This document shows positions 3,799-35,537 of a stretch of DNA of 64,000 nucleotides, piece after piece. The stretch is from Botrimarina mediterranea (GTDB lineage: Bacteria > Planctomycetota > Planctomycetia > Pirellulales > Lacipirellulaceae). The first letter of the stretch is position 1. Each line of letters opens with the position of its first letter. A program made the position numbers and the translations under genes. Below the pieces are notes generated by a model that saw nothing but the letters and a program-made list of their open reading frames with translations, did not search any database and was not told the origin of the DNA. The stretch is taken from assembly GCF_007753265.1 (NCBI RefSeq), contig NZ_CP036349.1, forward strand, positions 3,877,363 through 3,941,362, written 5' to 3'.

Positions 3799-6050
3799 CC
3801 GCTTCCCCTCCCGAACAGGCACGCGACGGCCGGTTCCATGAGCGCGAGCGCCAGCGCGCCGTAGAGCAGCCAACGGTGGATCGGCGTCGGCGCCGCTGCG
3901 GCGGCCGACTCGCTTGCGGCGTCGCCAACTGCGCGGCGGACGGTGAGTGAATCGGGGAGCAACTCGACCGCGACGGTCATCGGATCACTCTCCGCCGAGT
4001 CGACGTTCACGGCGACCGCCGAGTCGGGCACGTCACCCGCGGGTCCGTAGCGATAGACGCCGGCGAGCTTCGTGGAAGCGAACGACCAAGAGCCTGCTTC
4101 ATCGGGAGCAACGCGTCCCACTTCGCCGCCCGTTGGCCCTTCGACAGCGATCTGTGCCGCCGAACCACTGGCGACGCGACCGTCGATCGGCTGCCCTACC
4201 AGCAGCGACTGCGCGCCGGCGTCGTTCGCCAGATACGTCACGAGGCCGCGCACGATCGGCAAGAAGCTCGGCCAAGCCGGCAACACCGTCCACGCCTGCC
4301 CCGTCGCCGGGTCGAGCGAACTAAGCGTCGCCGCCGTCGTCAACACCGCCACGCGCCCACGGCCAATCTCGCCCGTCACCAGCAGCGGGTCGCCGTTCTC
4401 CAGCGCCATCGCGACGGTTGCCGACGATGACTTCGGGAGTTCGATGGGCAAGTGCCGCATCACCGGAATGTTGAGCAGCCCGGCGCGTTCTTGGCCTTGG
4501 AACGGCCGGACGATCGGGTGCTTGTACTCGAGCGGATCGACACGGTACGACGGCGCGGCAACCGACGGTGACAACCACCCCGGCATTAGCGTCCCATCAG
4601 AGGCCACCTCCTCCTCGCCCTCAGCCGCTTGCGGCTTAACGTCCACCGACACGAGGCGCACGTCGGGCCGCGGCGTAGCGCCGAGCGTCTCCCGCCGTGG
4701 CCCCAAGGTTTCGTTGTAGCGCTGCGGACTAACACGGTCCCCAAGCAACCAAGCGACACCGCCGCCGCGTTCGACATAGTCGTGCAGGCGCTCGGCTTCG
4801 GGTCCGGAGAGTTCGCGCACGTTCGACAAGAAAACGCAAACGTACTCCGAAAGATCCACCGTCGGCAGGTCGGCGTCGCTGACGATGACCGGCTCGAACG
4901 CGCCCTCGCCCGTCGGGTCGAGCGCGTCGGCCAGATAGTCCGCCGCCCCCGGCGCGCCGGCGACGCACAGCACCCGCACGCGCGGACGCAGCGTCACGGC
5001 GACGTAGCGCGTGTTGTCATCGGCGAGGCGGTCCTCGGCGCCGGCTTCGTTGGCGATCCGTATCGCAATGGACCGGGCGCCGGGTTGATCGATCTTGTGC
5101 ACAAAGTCGATCGGCGTCGGCTTGTCGCCGGAGAGGGTCACGCGGCGCTCCGCGACAACGGCGTCGTCAACAAGTAGTTCAACGACCCGCTCGACTTCTT
5201 GACCGTCGTAAACGTGCGCCTCGGCCAGCACTTCAATCGGCGCCGCGAGCGTGGGGAAGCCGTTCACGAGCCCCGCGGACGTGATCGCGACGCTCGGCAA
5301 CGGCGAACCGCCCACGTCGAGGGCAGAGATCGTCGCCGCTTCATCGAGTTTCTTGTAAGCCTCCGCAGCGGTAGTGCCCTCGTCAGCGGCGAGCGGCCCC
5401 CAGCTGTTGGCGCCGAGGTCGCTGAGCAGCACGACTTCCTGGCGCTGCGTGGCGCCGATCTCGCCGGCGCTATCGACGAGACGCTGCGTCGTGGTGAGCG
5501 CTTGTGCGAGGTCGGCGACGCCTTGCGACGGCGTGATCGCTTCGATCGCGCGCTTTGCGGCGGCGGCGTCGGAGGTCGGCCGGCCCAGCGGCGAGCCGGC
5601 GTCGGCGCCCATCACCACGAGCGAATAGGTGTCGCCGGCTCGGGCGTTCTCCACGAGCTTGATCGCCAGTCGCTTCGCACGGTCGAGCGCCGAAGTTCCT
5701 TCCGCATCGACGGCGTTCATCGACAGCGACGCGTCCACCACCAGCACGCGGTGCGTCGGCGCGCCGCTTCCGAGCAGTCCGCTCTCCAGCAGCGGCTTCG
5801 CCGCCGCCAGAGCCACCAGCACTAAGAGCAGCGTCCGCATCGCCAGCAAGATCCAGTGCTGCAATCGCAGCTTGCGGGCTTGGCGTTCAAGAGCCGCCTT
5901 CAAGAACCGCACCGCCGCCCACGCCGTCTCACGGTGCGTCTGCCGCATCCACAAGTGAATCACTATCGGCGCAGCCGCCGCCGCCAACCAACCCAGCATG
6001 GCGAGGTTGACGAACGTAAAAGCGAGCAGCGGATTCTGTTCTGGTAGCAA
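3795..6050 (-). CDS. BatA-like aerotolerance-type VWA membrane protein
   Basis: 751 residues from a TTG start. The first ~90 residues match the BatA N-terminal module: a hydrophobic helix with PIVIHLWMR, a basic amphipathic stretch, then a second helix ending AAAKPLLES. A VWA domain follows with the MIDAS motif VVDASLSM (D-x-S-x-S). The C-terminus closes with another membrane helix. The family anchors in the inner membrane with the VWA domain in the periplasm and is linked to MoxR ATPases in envelope stress and metal or aerotolerance functions; here that is inference from context. The gene overlaps the downstream VWA gene by 4 bp. The start is not certain: no Shine-Dalgarno precedes the TTG, and an ATG 17 codons downstream would cut into the BatA module. 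Confidence 0.88.
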   Translation of the reverse strand: MLPEQNPLLAFTFVNLAMLGWLAAAAAPIVIHLWMRQTHRETAWAAVRFLKAALERQARKLRLQHWILLAMRTLLLVLVALAAAKPLLESGLLGSGAPTHRVLVVDASLSMNAVDAEGTSALDRAKRLAIKLVENARAGDTYSLVVMGADAGSPLGRPTSDAAAAKRAIEAITPSQGVADLAQALTTTQRLVDSAGEIGATQRQEVVLLSDLGANSWGPLAADEGTTAAEAYKKLDEAATISALDVGGSPLPSVAITSAGLVNGFPTLAAPIEVLAEAHVYDGQEVERVVELLVDDAVVAERRVTLSGDKPTPIDFVHKIDQPGARSIAIRIANEAGAEDRLADDNTRYVAVTLRPRVRVLCVAGAPGAADYLADALDPTGEGAFEPVIVSDADLPTVDLSEYVCVFLSNVRELSGPEAERLHDYVERGGGVAWLLGDRVSPQRYNETLGPRRETLGATPRPDVRLVSVDVKPQAAEGEEEVASDGTLMPGWLSPSVAAPSYRVDPLEYKHPIVRPFQGQERAGLLNIPVMRHLPIELPKSSSATVAMALENGDPLLVTGEIGRGRVAVLTTAATLSSLDPATGQAWTVLPAWPSFLPIVRGLVTYLANDAGAQSLLVGQPIDGRVASGSAAQIAVEGPTGGEVGRVAPDEAGSWSFASTKLAGVYRYGPAGDVPDSAVAVNVDSAESDPMTVAVELLPDSLTVRRAVGDAASESAAAAAPTPIHRWLLYGALALALMEPAVACLFGRGSG

Positions 6051-20351: not shown

Positions 20352-20554
20352 GTCAGAATTCTCATTCAGTGGATTGGGCGATTTCAAGAACCCTTAATAA
20401 CAAGATGGAGGTGAGCAACCACGCGACAACTCACGTAAATTGACATCACGTCAACTCACCAGTGCCGCCGACTAGCAAAAGGTACGCCGCTGCGGGTGCG
20501 ACTTCCTGTCGCCACGCCCGGCCTTGCTAGCACCCCTCCACCGTGAGGCAGACG

Positions 20555-21388
20555 ATGGCCGGGTTTCGCCGCTTCAAGCGCCGCTATCTCCCCTTCCTCA
20601 TGGAAGGCTACGAGGTGCGACGGCTCCGTGACCGACTTTTGCGGAAGATCGGCCTCACCCGGGCCTACGAGCCCGAGGCGCTGACGATCGATCCGACGCT
20701 GCGTTTCGACGGCCTGCTCTCGTTGGTTGCGGCGGCCCACGTGCTGGAGCACGGTGAGATCACCTTCTTGCAGGTCGGCGCCTTCGATGGTGAGGAGGGG
20801 GACGCCATCGTCCACCTCATTGAGAACTACCCGGCCCGCGGCGTTTTAGTCGAGCCGCAGCCACGCGTCTTCGCGCGACTCTGCAAGCGGCACGAACGCC
20901 GCAACGACTTGACGCTCGTCAACGCGGCGATCGACAGCGAGGGCGGATCGCGGCCGTTCTACCTGGCGAAGAACGCCGATGTGCAGTTCGCTTCGTTCGA
21001 CCGTGGTCACTTGCTGCGGCACGGCTTGAATCACAACGAGATCGAGGCGGTCGAGGTCGAGTGCCTGACGATCAACGACGTGCTCGATCGGGCCGGCATG
21101 GAATCGGTGGACCTCGTCCAGGTCGACGCCGAAGGGCACGACTACGCGATCCTCCGCTCGATCGACCTGGAGCGCGTCGCGCCGCGGGTCATCCGCTTCG
21201 AGCACCGCCACTTCGACCGCGGCGACCTCACGGAATGGGTCGATACGCTCGCCGAACACAACTATCGTTTCCTGACAGAGAAGCTTGACGTGCTTGCGAT
21301 CCGGTCGGAAGTTGAGGAACCCGCCATCTTAAAGATGGAGAGACCGGCTGCGCTCGGTGAACCGGCGCAAAGCCGCCGAGCGGCGTGA
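20555..21388 (+). CDS. FkbM-family SAM-dependent methyltransferase
   Basis: About 277 residues. Features of the FkbM fold: FLQVGAFDGEEGD (motif I, residues ~70-82), GVLVEPQPRVFARL (motif II, acidic residue after the second strand), NAAIDSEGG, and SVDLVQVDAEGHDYAIL-RSID near residue 190, the most diagnostic stretch. It methylates a hydroxyl of an unknown substrate, often a sugar. The ATG is preceded by GAGG 6 bases upstream; a GTG 12 bases earlier is possible. It stands alone, with no glycosyltransferase cluster. Confidence 0.88.
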   Translation: MAGFRRFKRRYLPFLMEGYEVRRLRDRLLRKIGLTRAYEPEALTIDPTLRFDGLLSLVAAAHVLEHGEITFLQVGAFDGEEGDAIVHLIENYPARGVLVEPQPRVFARLCKRHERRNDLTLVNAAIDSEGGSRPFYLAKNADVQFASFDRGHLLRHGLNHNEIEAVEVECLTINDVLDRAGMESVDLVQVDAEGHDYAILRSIDLERVAPRVIRFEHRHFDRGDLTEWVDTLAEHNYRFLTEKLDVLAIRSEVEEPAILKMERPAALGEPAQSRRAA

Positions 21389-31250: not shown

Positions 31251-31273
31251 CCGCGGCTAGCGCCGACGGCTCA
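31251..31273 (-). repeat. TGAGCCGTCGGCGCTAGCCG repeat at the vsr stop
   Basis: Inverted relative to the copy at 30007-30029. Read on the minus strand it encodes the final Ser-Arg-Arg-Arg residues and supplies the TAG stop of the Vsr-like protein. Confidence 0.85.
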
Positions 31274-31724
31274 CGACGTAGTCTTTTAAGCGAGCGGTGA
31301 GCCTGGGGGGAAGGCGGCGTGATTTGAGGCGGCATTCCCAGATGGTCCAGACGGAGTAGCCCAGCTCGCGCAGTTCACGGGTGACGCGGCGGTCGCGGCG
31401 GCGGTTGCGGGTGATCTTGGCGGTCCAGTAGGCGCGGTTCGTCTTGGGCGTTCGGGCGCCGCGCGGACAGTCGTGGGCGTGCCACCAGCAGCCGTGCACG
31501 AACAGCGCCAGCGGTTGGCGGCCGCGTTTCTCGACGACCCGGCCCCGCCCTGTGATCACAAAGTCGGGCTTGCCGGGGAGCGCAGCGACTTCGCGACGGT
31601 AAGCGACGCCCAACTCATCGAGCAGCGCTGCGACGAGCAACTCGGGCTTCGTGTCGCGGCTCTTCACCGCCCGCATCGTACGGCTGCGCTCGGCGGACGG
31701 TTTAGCGATGCGCGCTGTGGGCAT
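31257..31724 (-). CDS. Very-short-patch mismatch endonuclease (Vsr-like)
   Basis: 155 residues. Signature segments of Vsr: MRAVKSRDTKPELLVAALLDELG near residue 17, LPGKPDFVI with the metal-binding Asp near residue 52, then ALFVHGCWWHAHDCP near residue 76, and KTNRAYWTAKITRNRRRDRR. Vsr cuts next to T:G mismatches that arise from deamination of methylated cytosine. Normally it sits beside a cytosine-5 methylase; none is visible here, so it is an orphan. A ~10-residue insertion (GRGRVVEKRG) lies before the FVHGC strand. Its C-terminus is set by a dispersed repeat. Confidence 0.88.
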   Translation of the reverse strand: MPTARIAKPSAERSRTMRAVKSRDTKPELLVAALLDELGVAYRREVAALPGKPDFVITGRGRVVEKRGRQPLALFVHGCWWHAHDCPRGARTPKTNRAYWTAKITRNRRRDRRVTRELRELGYSVWTIWECRLKSRRLPPRLTARLKDYVVSRRR

Positions 31725-31863: not shown

Positions 31864-33228
31864 TTAGAACGGGACCGGGTCCGTTGGCGTCTGTAACCCA
31901 AACGCCTCCGCCCAGGTCTCGCACAACTCATCGACGGTGTCGGGGGGCCCCGCGATTACTTTGTTGCCGAGGATCTGCGCCGGCAGACCGAAGCGGCCTT
32001 GCTTGGCGATCGCGGCGGAGAGCGCGACGTGGTTCTTCACGCGCGCGGCGAGCGAGCCGTCTTCATCCACCAGCGCGCGGCTGAGCTTGTCGCCATCGAC
32101 GTGATTGCGGGCCTCGATCAAGGACGCTGTGCTGTTGGGTATCGAGTCGCCGCGGAGCATCCACTCGTGGAAGGACTCGAACTCATCGGGGGCCAGCGTC
32201 GATACGGCGAGCGCTAGCTTGGCCGCGTAACAGGCGCCGAGCGACTGCTTGCGGGCCTTCTGCACGTAGGGGTTGCAGGCGATCTCGTTCGGCACGGGCA
32301 TCACGACGACGGCGATCTGGCCATCGAAACGCTGCAGCGCCTCGGTGAGCTTCTCATGGAACTCACGGCAGTGGGGGCACGCGTAGTCCATCATCTCGAT
32401 GACGATGTGCGGCGCGTCGGGCGAGCCGAGCACGGCCTGCTCGTAAGTGTCGAACTTGAGCCGGCCGTTGAGCGCGGAGAACATCCGCGAACCGCCCTTC
32501 CGCCGGGCCGGCTTGGCTACCTCTCGTGGCGCGACAGGTTCATCAGCAACCGTTGCTTCGGACTCGGGCTCTTCGATTGCTTCGACATTTTCGTTAAGTG
32601 TGGCGTCACCGAGGTCGAACTGCTCGTTGATCTCGGCCGTGTACTCAGAGACCGTTGGGGCGGCGAACATCGTCTGCCCGCCGGCTAGCACGATGACGCC
32701 CAGAAGGCCTAGCACCGTCGGCAGGCCGAGCGTCGGCGGGCCTTCGGCGGCGTGGGCAATCGTCGGCGACGCGGCAATCGGCGAGAGGGCGACCGGTCGG
32801 GGGCCGTCCACCGACGCCTTGTTGCGCCAGACGATCATCGCGATCGCCATGGCTAAGCCGCAGGCGTGCGTCGCCAGGCACCAGACGCAGAGGGAGCCGA
32901 CCTCGACGAACTGGACGCCGGTGAACCAGAGCCCTGCCCCGATCGCTAGCGGCGCCGTGAACTCCATCAGTCGCCATCCAGCGGTCGCCAGCGCGCCACG
33001 GCCTCCGGCCAAGAATGATCCAACGAGCGCCAGCGCGTAGCAAACCACTCCGCCCGCCGCGACCGGCACGCCAAGCCACTTGGCCCAAGGGCTAGCGAGC
33101 ACCGCATCGCAGTCCGCGCCCGAGAAGGCGTTGCAACCAACGACGGGCTGTAGCGTCGCGCTGGCCCACAGCAGGTAAGCCGACAGGCCCACCGCGGCAG
33201 CCGCTAGCAGTCGAGTGATCCAAGCCAT
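31864..33228 (-). CDS. VKOR-DsbA fusion (disulfide bond formation)
   Basis: 454 residues. The N-terminal ~130 residues are a VKOR domain with the loop cysteines Cys 32 and Cys 40 and the CxxC active site CVWC (Cys 114, Cys 117). Four to five helices span the membrane. After a ~130-residue linker with acidic and Pro-rich parts comes a thioredoxin-fold DsbA-like domain with CPHC (Cys 284 and Cys 287) and cis-Pro-type context near residue 420. The protein would oxidise periplasmic thiols and hand electrons to quinones. Fusion of VKOR with a thioredoxin-type domain is known in several bacteria. It may serve cytochrome c and exported protein maturation in this organism. Confidence 0.92.
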   Translation of the reverse strand: MAWITRLLAAAAVGLSAYLLWASATLQPVVGCNAFSGADCDAVLASPWAKWLGVPVAAGGVVCYALALVGSFLAGGRGALATAGWRLMEFTAPLAIGAGLWFTGVQFVEVGSLCVWCLATHACGLAMAIAMIVWRNKASVDGPRPVALSPIAASPTIAHAAEGPPTLGLPTVLGLLGVIVLAGGQTMFAAPTVSEYTAEINEQFDLGDATLNENVEAIEEPESEATVADEPVAPREVAKPARRKGGSRMFSALNGRLKFDTYEQAVLGSPDAPHIVIEMMDYACPHCREFHEKLTEALQRFDGQIAVVVMPVPNEIACNPYVQKARKQSLGACYAAKLALAVSTLAPDEFESFHEWMLRGDSIPNSTASLIEARNHVDGDKLSRALVDEDGSLAARVKNHVALSAAIAKQGRFGLPAQILGNKVIAGPPDTVDELCETWAEAFGLQTPTDPVPF

Positions 33229-33498: not shown

Positions 33499-34602
33499 AT
33501 GAACATGGCCCCGAAGGTCCGTCCGCTATGGCAACGCGCCCCGATCGTCGGCGCCCTGAGCGCCCTGCGGGCCTACCAGGCCATGCGGCTGCCGACGCGC
33601 ATCCTGCCGCGCGACATCAAGGCGATCGTCCGCAACTGGGACCCGCGGATGTTCCACCAGCTGATTCGCTCGGGCGTGACGTCGGCGTACATCGACCAGC
33701 CCTGCGAGTTCCGCCAGCCGGCCGTCGTCGCCCCCAAGGCCGAGGTCGCGCCGGAGTACCGGCTGACCCAGGAGCAGCTCGAGTCGTTCTACACCCGCGG
33801 GTTCATCGGCCCGATCGACGTGTTCACGCCCGAGCAGATGCGGGACTTCAAGAAGGACCTGCTGGCGATCGAGGGTGAGAAGTCGCAGACCTACGGTTTC
33901 GTGACGCCGCGTGACCGTCATTTCGAGATGCCGCGGCTGTGGTACTACATGAAGTCGCCGGCGGTGACGGACCGGATCGCCCAATTGCTGGGCCCGGACC
34001 TCAACTGCTGGCGTTCGCAGATTTTCTACAAGGGCCCGGGCTCGCCCGCCATTCAGTGGCACCAGGCAAGCACGTTCATGGTCGAGGACTACCAAGACCC
34101 GGCCCTGTTCCCCGCCGACCGGAACGAGCTGTTCCAGATCACGGCCTGGATCGCCGTCGATGACTCGACCCACGAGAACGGCGCCCTAAAGTTCGCCTCC
34201 GGGACGCACAGCCGCATCCGTACGATCAATTTCGGCGGCAAGGAAGGGTTCTACAACGCGGCGTTCGAGCTCGACTTCCGTGAAGAGGACCAAGAGATCG
34301 TCGAGATCCCCTGCCGTGCGGGCCAGATGATCCTGTTCACCGAGCGCTGCATCCACGGCTCGGCGGCGAACAAGACCGACAAGCACCGGATCGCTTTCAA
34401 CCTCCGGGCGGTCCCGACGAACGTCGCTGTTTATCCCGGCAAGAAGTACTACCGCAGCGTTTACAACGGCGGCAAGTACCACCTCGACAAGTGGGGCGTC
34501 GCGCTGCTGCGCGGTGAGGACCGTCACCAGCTGAGCCGCACCATTCCGGCCGAGATGCTCGAGCGCGGCTACGACGCCATGCCGACACGGCTGGCCGCCT
34601 AA
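33499..34602 (+). CDS. Phytanoyl-CoA dioxygenase family; SyrB2-like halogenase candidate
   Basis: About 367 residues. The catalytic core is an Fe(II)/2-oxoglutarate cupin: IQWHQASTF holds His 188 and Ala 190, the second His is His 286 (CIHGSA), and Arg 297 (KHRIAFNLR) should bind 2-oxoglutarate. In hydroxylases of the PhyH family the third residue is Asp (HxD); here it is Ala, as in SyrB2-type chlorinating enzymes (H-x-A), where chloride takes the vacant iron site. As I recall SyrB2, other segments also match its layout: GFIGPIDVFTPEQM near the start of the core, LLGPDLNCWRSQIFYKGPG and VPTNVAVYPGKKYY. The first ~85 residues are an extra N-terminal extension. It is followed by an SDR gene 26 bp away. 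Starts at 33490 or 33505 are also possible; AGGGA precedes 33499. Confidence 0.85.
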   Translation: MNMAPKVRPLWQRAPIVGALSALRAYQAMRLPTRILPRDIKAIVRNWDPRMFHQLIRSGVTSAYIDQPCEFRQPAVVAPKAEVAPEYRLTQEQLESFYTRGFIGPIDVFTPEQMRDFKKDLLAIEGEKSQTYGFVTPRDRHFEMPRLWYYMKSPAVTDRIAQLLGPDLNCWRSQIFYKGPGSPAIQWHQASTFMVEDYQDPALFPADRNELFQITAWIAVDDSTHENGALKFASGTHSRIRTINFGGKEGFYNAAFELDFREEDQEIVEIPCRAGQMILFTERCIHGSAANKTDKHRIAFNLRAVPTNVAVYPGKKYYRSVYNGGKYHLDKWGVALLRGEDRHQLSRTIPAEMLERGYDAMPTRLAA

Positions 34603-34628: not shown

Positions 34629-35537
34629 ATGCGACCCCTCGCCGGTAAGACCGCACTCGTGACCGGCGCCGCCCGCGGCATCGGCCGGGCGATCGCATTG
34701 CGGCTGGCGGTGAAGGGCATGCGGCTGGCGCTGGCGGACCGCGACATGGCGCGGCTGGCGCTGACGGTGCGGGAGGTCCAGGGCTACGGCGTCGAGACCC
34801 ACGCCTGCGACTGTGAGCTAACCGACCCGGCGTCGGTCGATGACCTGGCCGGGTCGATGCTGCGGCGCTGGGCGGGCGTGGACCTGCTGGTGAACAATGC
34901 CGGGATCGCCCATTACGGCCCGGTCCATGCGATGACCGAGGCGCAGATCGATCGGCTGTTGGCGGTCAACTTCCACGCCCCGATCCGGCTGACGCACGCT
35001 CTGCTGCCGGCGCTGCTGGCCCGGCCCGAGTCGCACGTGCTGAACGTGGGGAGCGTCCTGGGGCTGGCGGTGATGCCGAAGGTGGCCCTGTACTGCGCGT
35101 CCAAGCACGGCTTGGTGGGCTTCAGCGAGACGCTGCGGCTGGAGTACGGCCGTCAGGGGCTCGGCGTGACGACGCTCTGCCCGGGCTTCGTCCGCACGGC
35201 GATGATCGACTCGGCGCCGGTTGCGGGGGCGCCGCTGCGGCAACCGCCGTGGGTCCTCTGCGTGACGCCCAATCAAATCGCCCGCGCGGCGGTGGCGGGC
35301 GTCGAGCGGAACCGTCGCCGCGTCGTGGTCGATCCCGTCGGCCGCTGGTTGCGGGGCGCGATGGGGCTGGCGCCGGGCGTGTTCGACTGGATGAACTCGC
35401 TCGGCCGATCGAAACGGGTGGCCGAGAAGCGGGCCGAGCTGGCGGCGCTCGGCGCTAATAGAGAAGCGGCTCTGCGGATCAAGCTGGGGATTGCCCCAGA
35501 AGAGACGCCGCTAAGCGGCAAGCCGATGGCGGCTTAG
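34629..35537 (+). CDS. Short-chain dehydrogenase/reductase
   Basis: 302 residues. The SDR motifs are complete: TGAARGIG (residues 14-21, NAD(P)-binding), NNAGIAHYG near 90, LNVGSVLG with the catalytic Ser near 139, and YCASKHG (Tyr and Lys). The C-terminal extension of ~60 residues after the core is typical of the family with a membrane-associating tail (GRWLRGAMGLAPGVFDWMNSL). Spacing of 26 bp to the halogenase-like gene suggests one operon, so it may oxidise or reduce the same substrate. Which cofactor is used is unclear; the first acidic residue after strand 2 (LADRD) favours NADH. Confidence 0.92.
   Translation: MRPLAGKTALVTGAARGIGRAIALRLAVKGMRLALADRDMARLALTVREVQGYGVETHACDCELTDPASVDDLAGSMLRRWAGVDLLVNNAGIAHYGPVHAMTEAQIDRLLAVNFHAPIRLTHALLPALLARPESHVLNVGSVLGLAVMPKVALYCASKHGLVGFSETLRLEYGRQGLGVTTLCPGFVRTAMIDSAPVAGAPLRQPPWVLCVTPNQIARAAVAGVERNRRRVVVDPVGRWLRGAMGLAPGVFDWMNSLGRSKRVAEKRAELAALGANREAALRIKLGIAPEETPLSGKPMAA

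Follow-up and report, generated by a model that had tools for sequence, protein, structure and literature searches.

Introduction

SyrB2 and CytC3, the nearest solved structures and tree neighbours of the protein described here, act on substrates that are bound to a carrier protein. To our knowledge, the SyrB2-type halogenases that have been characterised belong to antibiotic or phytotoxin clusters, mostly with carrier-bound substrates of this kind. Papers are cited below by PMC number. Chloride binding has been attributed to a conserved His, Phe, Arg and Ser (PMC4859513). HctB halogenates a fatty acyl group, and His111, Val113, His227, Glu223 and Arg245 are described as its residues; its authors argue that Glu223, unique among the halogenases reported, favours halogenation (PMC6218459). 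An HXG site occurs in a natural 2-oxoglutarate hydroxylase, human AspH (PMC10947486), and a pipeline paper warns that searches with the HXA/G motif yield false positives (PMC12871659). In the available text of PMC6299022, planctomycetes are named for flavin halogenases only. Our own literature search, which had most subscription journals outside its coverage, found no non-heme iron halogenase from a planctomycete. Here we describe a candidate from Botrimarina mediterranea.

Results

A PhyH-fold protein with a SyrB2-type iron site

The open reading frame at 33499..34602 (+) of the window, by which we mean the whole stretch of 64,000 nucleotides that was analysed, starts with an ATG at 33499 and encodes a PhyH-fold protein of 367 residues. 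We call this candidate Fe(II)/2-oxoglutarate halogenase HALO; its source genome is a single contig of 5.87 Mb. The choice of start codon is backed by an invariant M1-N2-M3 in eight of eight aligned proteins. An earlier note on this DNA had reported the frame, an Ala190 in place of the iron-binding Asp, His286 and Arg297, and our translation confirms each of them at the same position.

His188-Gln189-Ala190 (34060..34068, +) comprises the first iron His and the Ala that replaces the Asp, and His286 (34354..34356, +) is the second iron His. Alignment with SyrB2 places Arg297 (34387..34389, +), the 2-oxoglutarate Arg, at Arg248 and Arg303 (34405..34407, +) at Arg254, while SyrB2 Phe121, Thr143 and Trp145 fall on Phe193, Thr215 and Trp217. 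The SyrB2 numbers carry with them the roles that we presume for the aligned HALO pocket positions. Among 41 orthologues, one per genome, the residues kept without exception are His188, Ala190, His286, Arg297, Arg303, Glu282, Gln174, Thr215 and Trp217; Phe193 is kept in 39 and is Tyr in the other two. The SyrB2-type site (HxA/HxG ... His, no acidic ligand) is therefore present in 41 of 41. Since Ala190, both His and Arg297 are universal, and dN/dS of HALO against three orthologues is low (0.144, 0.165 and 0.269, purifying selection), the pattern is not due to chance.

The pocket departs from SyrB2 at two positions. Glu282 (34342..34344, +) takes the place of SyrB2 Ser231, which we take to line the chloride pocket. 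The chlorinase pair Glu102/Ser231 is Gln174/Glu282 throughout the planctomycete clade, and therefore the HALO pocket is not identical; two chlorinase rows with an HxV site have Ala at the Ser position. Glu282 stands four residues before His286, as Glu223 of HctB does before His227 (PMC6218459), a comparison by residue numbers only. By this analogy, Glu282 is compatible with halogenation and no proof of it.

Family profiles and the N-terminal extension

The earlier note had named two profiles against which the protein could be checked, and they gave different answers. Pfam PhyH (PF05721) matches residues 99-298 with 85.2 bits, well above its gathering score of 22. TIGR01762 (chlorinating enzyme) is the top NCBIfam match, over residues 87-344 (E 2.8e-44), and its 151.6 bits lie under the curated cut-off of 226.3; matches over that cut-off were found in none of the 392 phylum genomes. 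Scores of 111-133 bits, near that of HALO, are reached by eight planctomycete relatives that have the Asp, and a plasmid chlorinase scores 452, so the profile is not decisive. We call HALO a halogenase-like enzyme outside TIGR01762 as drawn.

The extension of about 85 residues at the N terminus, which the earlier note had found missing from SyrB2, is real. Alignments begin at residue 12 or before in 40 of 41 orthologues, and the matches of both SyrB2 and CytC3 start only at residues 84-87. Residues 1-84 (33499..33750, +) are specific to the clade, with a helix predicted at 10-28 in a poor full-length model.

Chlorinases are the closest relatives by sequence and tree

In the PDB, the best sequence matches to HALO are CytC3 (4.4e-33) and SyrB2 (3.9e-32), and the next family follows at 1.1e-12. 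The best plasmid matches are mostly annotated as chlorinating enzymes, at 28-32% identity. A core model of residues 84-354 built from nine rows (pLDDT 67.7, pTM 0.73, last 40 residues weak) was used for fold comparison; the full-length model from eight orthologues had a pLDDT of 52.2 and was excluded from the fold search. SyrB2 ranks first both in Foldseek (3.6e-22) and in VIA-align (Z 23.8, rmsd 3.1, 252 aligned, 29% identity). The hydroxylases GriE and H11 come next in VIA-align, with Z 22.6-22.5 and 20% identity, and therefore the fold alone does not separate halogenase from hydroxylase. AspH is absent from the VIA-align matches listed and from the nearest sequences found. Scans of viral contigs for additional rows of the alignment each yielded at most one, distant, row.

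Two trees were built. The first, with the Ala190 column removed, had 59 rows, among them 19 of the 41 orthologues and 14 of the 37 plasmid records with matches, and omitted eight near-duplicate Asp rows. It grouped the planctomycete clade with the chlorinases at 96/90; one long Vibrio row, which has Glu, also fell inside this group. For the second tree, of 52 rows, seven long-branch rows were also omitted (L130 with HxE, L132 with HxH, and the HxD rows L002, L003, L043, L049 and L075). The planctomycete clade and the SyrB2/CytC3-type chlorinases form one side of a branch supported at 96/93, and all Asp rows fall on one side at 99/90. Constraining this tree to join the planctomycete clade with its nearest Asp-bearing relatives was rejected (p 0.0107). 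HALO and the characterised chlorinases thus share a common descent. The groupings and the rejected rival clade are most simply explained by a single old loss of the Asp, common to the planctomycete clade and the chlorinases. Within this group the planctomycete clade is a deep, separate branch, set apart by scores under the TIGR01762 cut-off, the 85-residue extension and the absence of a nearby carrier protein. The suggestion in the earlier note that HALO may be a halogenase is accordingly supported by iron site, nearest structures and tree, the TIGR01762 cut-off being the part that was not reached, and we keep it as an inference.

Other variants of the site were seen among the relatives. A planctomycete protein of 911 residues (L097 11875-14610, genome G192) carries an HxG site in its C-terminal PhyH part, is followed by sulfotransferase and hydrolase genes, and falls on the chlorinase/planctomycete side of the second tree; it is another candidate halogenase, whose product may be sulfated. 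Chlorinating-enzyme homologues on a Nostoc plasmid (L125 6001-6828, 352 bits on TIGR01762) and a Streptomyces plasmid (L134 529-1482) have HxV, like Val113 of HctB. PhyH proteins with HxE (L130 490-1608, Vibrio plasmid) or HxH (L132 571-1350, Halorussus plasmid) at the Asp position also occur.

HALO is kept across most of the family

Matches at 1e-15 or better occur in 36 of the 43 family genomes, and 35 of these are near-full-length orthologues with 60-100% identity; the remaining match, in G026, is a paralogue that has the Asp. Identity to HALO is 90% for the Botrimarina colliarenosi orthologue and likewise for that of G007, of the same genus. HALO is absent from eight of the 43 (G022, G026, G027, G029, G030, G031, G035 and G037), most of them incomplete drafts. 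Phylum-wide, 68 of 392 genomes have a match at 1e-10, in nearly every case a relative with less than 35% identity; those that were read retain the Asp, the HxG protein of G192 being the exception. At 1e-30, 24 of 397 genomes of the class match: 18 of the family and six (4 + 2) of another family, namely four from one genus at 59-65% identity and two from another genus at 41%. The HALO proteins of the four (L030, L031, L032 and L102, three of which were tree rows) nest within the sequences of family f1 and occur without the SDR orthologue, which suggests that they arrived by horizontal transfer.

A short-chain dehydrogenase is the constant neighbour

Downstream of HALO by 26 bp lies a gene for a classical short-chain dehydrogenase (SDR; 34629..35537, +; PF00106, 174.4 bits). 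It is directly downstream in 34 of the 35 HALO-bearing family genomes, and in the exception, G023, the contig with HALO stops at this point, and a different contig carries the best SDR match. Orthologues of the SDR (205 bits or more) are found in 37 of 43 family genomes. Six of the eight genomes that lack HALO also lack the SDR (best match 130 bits or less), and the other two, G027 and G031, have it. The site in G027 reads VKOR-DsbA gene, a gap of 409 bp, then SDR, with no trace of HALO; this site (L259, C97:15000-24000, about 4755-5165) offers a ready comparison strain. In G031 the contig starts 429 bases before the SDR, and that stretch contains no HALO 3' end. In another family, HALO occurs without this SDR in six of six genomes. 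The gene that follows HALO in G403 and G503 encodes a protein of 533 or 531 residues, and the G403 one weakly resembles a PapA5 acyltransferase.

No carrier protein is encoded near HALO, as the earlier note had observed: the five PP-binding matches of the genome all lie at a distance of about 793 kb or more. The same note had proposed a free or lipid-linked substrate. The missing carrier protein agrees with this proposal, and for a lipid there is the weak hint of the acyltransferase-like gene in G403. As a partner enzyme this candidate was rejected, with 36.8 bits for PapA5 and 31.2 bits for WS/DGAT, both far below their cut-offs, and its counterpart in G503 has no Pfam match; the lipid link is therefore weak. 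SASA-esterase, DAO and VKOR genes were set aside as pathway partners, as they adjoin HALO in some loci only. Halohydrin dehalogenases have lost the NAD-binding motif. The SDR was rejected as one of them, its translation having an intact TGxxxGxG (TGAARGIG) and YxxxK. Two further genes in the window lie nearby: one for a fused VKOR and DsbA-like thioredoxin protein (31864-33228, -), a frequent divergent upstream neighbour of HALO, and one for a Vsr-type mismatch endonuclease (31257-31724, -), which several genomes of the genus have close to HALO.

Both enzymes end in a conserved Ala-Ala tail

HALO ends in Arg-Leu-Ala-Ala (34588..34599, +) and the SDR in Pro-Met-Ala-Ala (35523..35534, +), and both tails are degron-like. 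An Ala-Ala end is found in 38 of 39 HALO orthologues, mostly preceded by Arg or Lys, with Val-Ala in the remaining one, and in 20 of 21 SDR orthologues, so that the two proteins share a conserved basic-x-Ala-Ala tail. In the same 20 stretches, five of 281 other ORFs end in Ala-Ala and one of 281 has the basic form. Each of the four Ala codons and three stop codons is used among the tails, and the sequence ahead of them is divergent; the tail is therefore selected as a peptide. The relatives with 41% identity in G403 and G503 end in Ala-Gly-Ala. In the HALO-less G027 and G031, the SDR ends in ISA and QPR, that is, Ala-Ala in none of two, a small number.

A review lists LAA, NAA, PAA, EAA, RAKKVA and HARKVA as C-motifs for ClpXP (PMC9775585 Table 2), and both tails have ends of this kind, xAA or basic-rich. 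The tmRNA tag of this genome ends in ALAA. The genome also has an open frame that encodes a ClpB_D2-small domain and, at 427 residues, has the length of ClpX, which we infer it to be. The simplest reading of the tail sequences is that they may be a shared ClpXP degron; a common sorting or docking signal is the alternative.

We also considered RRAA as a genome-wide tag and rejected it (99 pattern sites against 48 in a backward control). When all 99 were examined, 17 lay in ORFs of at least 100 aa, about 6-7 of which had coding-type base use; six of these were scanned, and two had Pfam matches (MscS channel and FkbM methyltransferase), both unrelated. The FkbM methyltransferase gene (window 20543-21385, +) ends in SRRAA. 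Its best matches to relatives stop before the tail, which does not seem to be kept in them.

Discussion

A proposed radical halogenase and its rivals

We consider HALO to be probably, and by no means certainly, a mononuclear iron halogenase that would act on aliphatic carbon by a radical route dependent on 2-oxoglutarate and oxygen. The caution in this estimate arises because the TIGR01762 cut-off was failed, AspH hydroxylates with two His, and HXA/G false positives are known. If HALO works as SyrB2-type enzymes are known to do, Fe(II) would be held by His188 and His286, 2-oxoglutarate would bind iron and Arg297, and chloride or bromide would occupy the gap left by Ala190. Oxygen and decarboxylation would then give a haloferryl; this would abstract a hydrogen at an unactivated carbon, which would in turn receive the halogen. 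The absence of a nearby carrier protein makes a free or lipid-like substrate probable. The genomic context further suggests that the adjacent SDR may oxidise or reduce a hydroxyl or keto group of HALO's molecule, and that the Ala-Ala tails probably let ClpXP remove both enzymes together. Several observations count against a halogenase: the missing carrier, whereas SyrB2 and CytC3 have carrier-bound substrates, the nearness of GriE and H11 by fold, the Gln174/Glu282 pocket, the Glu-bearing Vibrio row inside the clade of the first tree, and the six other-family genomes in which HALO lacks this SDR.

The main competing explanation is that HALO hydroxylates with a two-His site, as human AspH does: water would fill the Ala190 gap and the product would be an alcohol. 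AspH itself is a precedent (PMC10947486), the motif is prone to false positives (PMC12871659), and both the replaced Glu/Ser pair and the hydroxylases near by fold would suit such an enzyme. We nevertheless regard it as unlikely, as chlorinases are closest by sequence and tree and the residue fixed in all 41 orthologues is Ala and not Gly; in FIH, changing the Asp to Gly but not to Ala kept some activity (PMC10947486). A hydroxylase with the same Ala, which the earlier note had regarded as damaging to its proposal, was sought, and none was found.

An ordinary hydroxylase with a moved carboxylate, in which Glu282, one turn before His286, binds iron instead of the Asp, seems improbable. Its presence in every orthologue, at the Ser231 position, is what such a ligand would require. 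Yet in the nearest Asp clade all 10 rows that bear the Asp have Glu282 as well; this Glu is therefore older than the loss of the Asp, and not a moved ligand. The halogenase HctB also has a Glu at this offset (PMC6218459). The earlier note had pointed to a replacement acid as a danger to the halogenase reading, and the acid nearest the second His, Glu282, leaves that reading in place. Least probable of all is that HALO has lost its redox chemistry and serves the SDR as a pseudoenzyme or scaffold. Its iron site is incomplete by hydroxylase standards, and the SDR link holds in 34 of 35 genomes; against this, all 41 orthologues keep both His and the 2-oxoglutarate Arg, and in six genomes of another family HALO does without this SDR.

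Possible role

If HALO is a radical halogenase, its chemistry would be known, and what would be new is how deeply it branches, its setting without a carrier protein, its retention with an SDR across the family, and the matched tails. Because most of the family keeps this halogenase-like enzyme beside one partner, HALO may serve everyday life and not antibiotic making. A wider picture, which we offer tentatively and would not expect to hold in every part, is that nearly all Lacipirellulaceae pair a radical halogenase that needs no carrier with an SDR, and that the two together produce some halogenated small molecule or lipid as part of normal physiology. Co-degradation through the matching Ala-Ala tails would switch this pathway off, and the SDR would lose its tail where the halogenase is lost. 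If this is true, C-H halogenation by a radical route would be able to form part of routine metabolism, the pair would hint at a halogenated planctomycete metabolite as yet unknown, and the enzyme might serve as a stand-alone biocatalyst. Gln174/Glu282 is a natural pocket variant with which to ask what decides between halogen and oxygen transfer in halogenases and hydroxylases. In giving two adjoining enzymes one shared conserved C-terminal signal, the matched tails would be unusual.

Comparison with known systems

The tails resemble the C-motif degrons of ClpXP in their xAA ends and in basic-rich ends such as RAKKVA (PMC9775585). They differ in being conserved in two adjoining enzymes across a family. 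With AspH, HALO shares the lack of an acidic iron ligand, AspH having an HXG site (PMC10947486). HctB, a halogenase of hectochlorin biosynthesis, is alike in its two His, the Glu four residues before the second of them, the Arg that follows and a non-acidic residue at the Asp position, all compared by residue numbers only; it has Val where HALO has Ala, and carries its own acyl carrier domain (PMC6218459).

The closest likeness is to SyrB2 and CytC3, with which HALO shares the fold, the HQA...H iron site, the 2-oxoglutarate Arg, the second Arg, and the Phe, Thr and Trp of the pocket. It is unlike them in sequence (29% identity in the structure alignment), in having Gln174/Glu282 for Glu/Ser and the 85-residue extension, and in a setting where no carrier protein is near, the enzyme is kept across most of a family, and the protein ends in an Ala-Ala tail.
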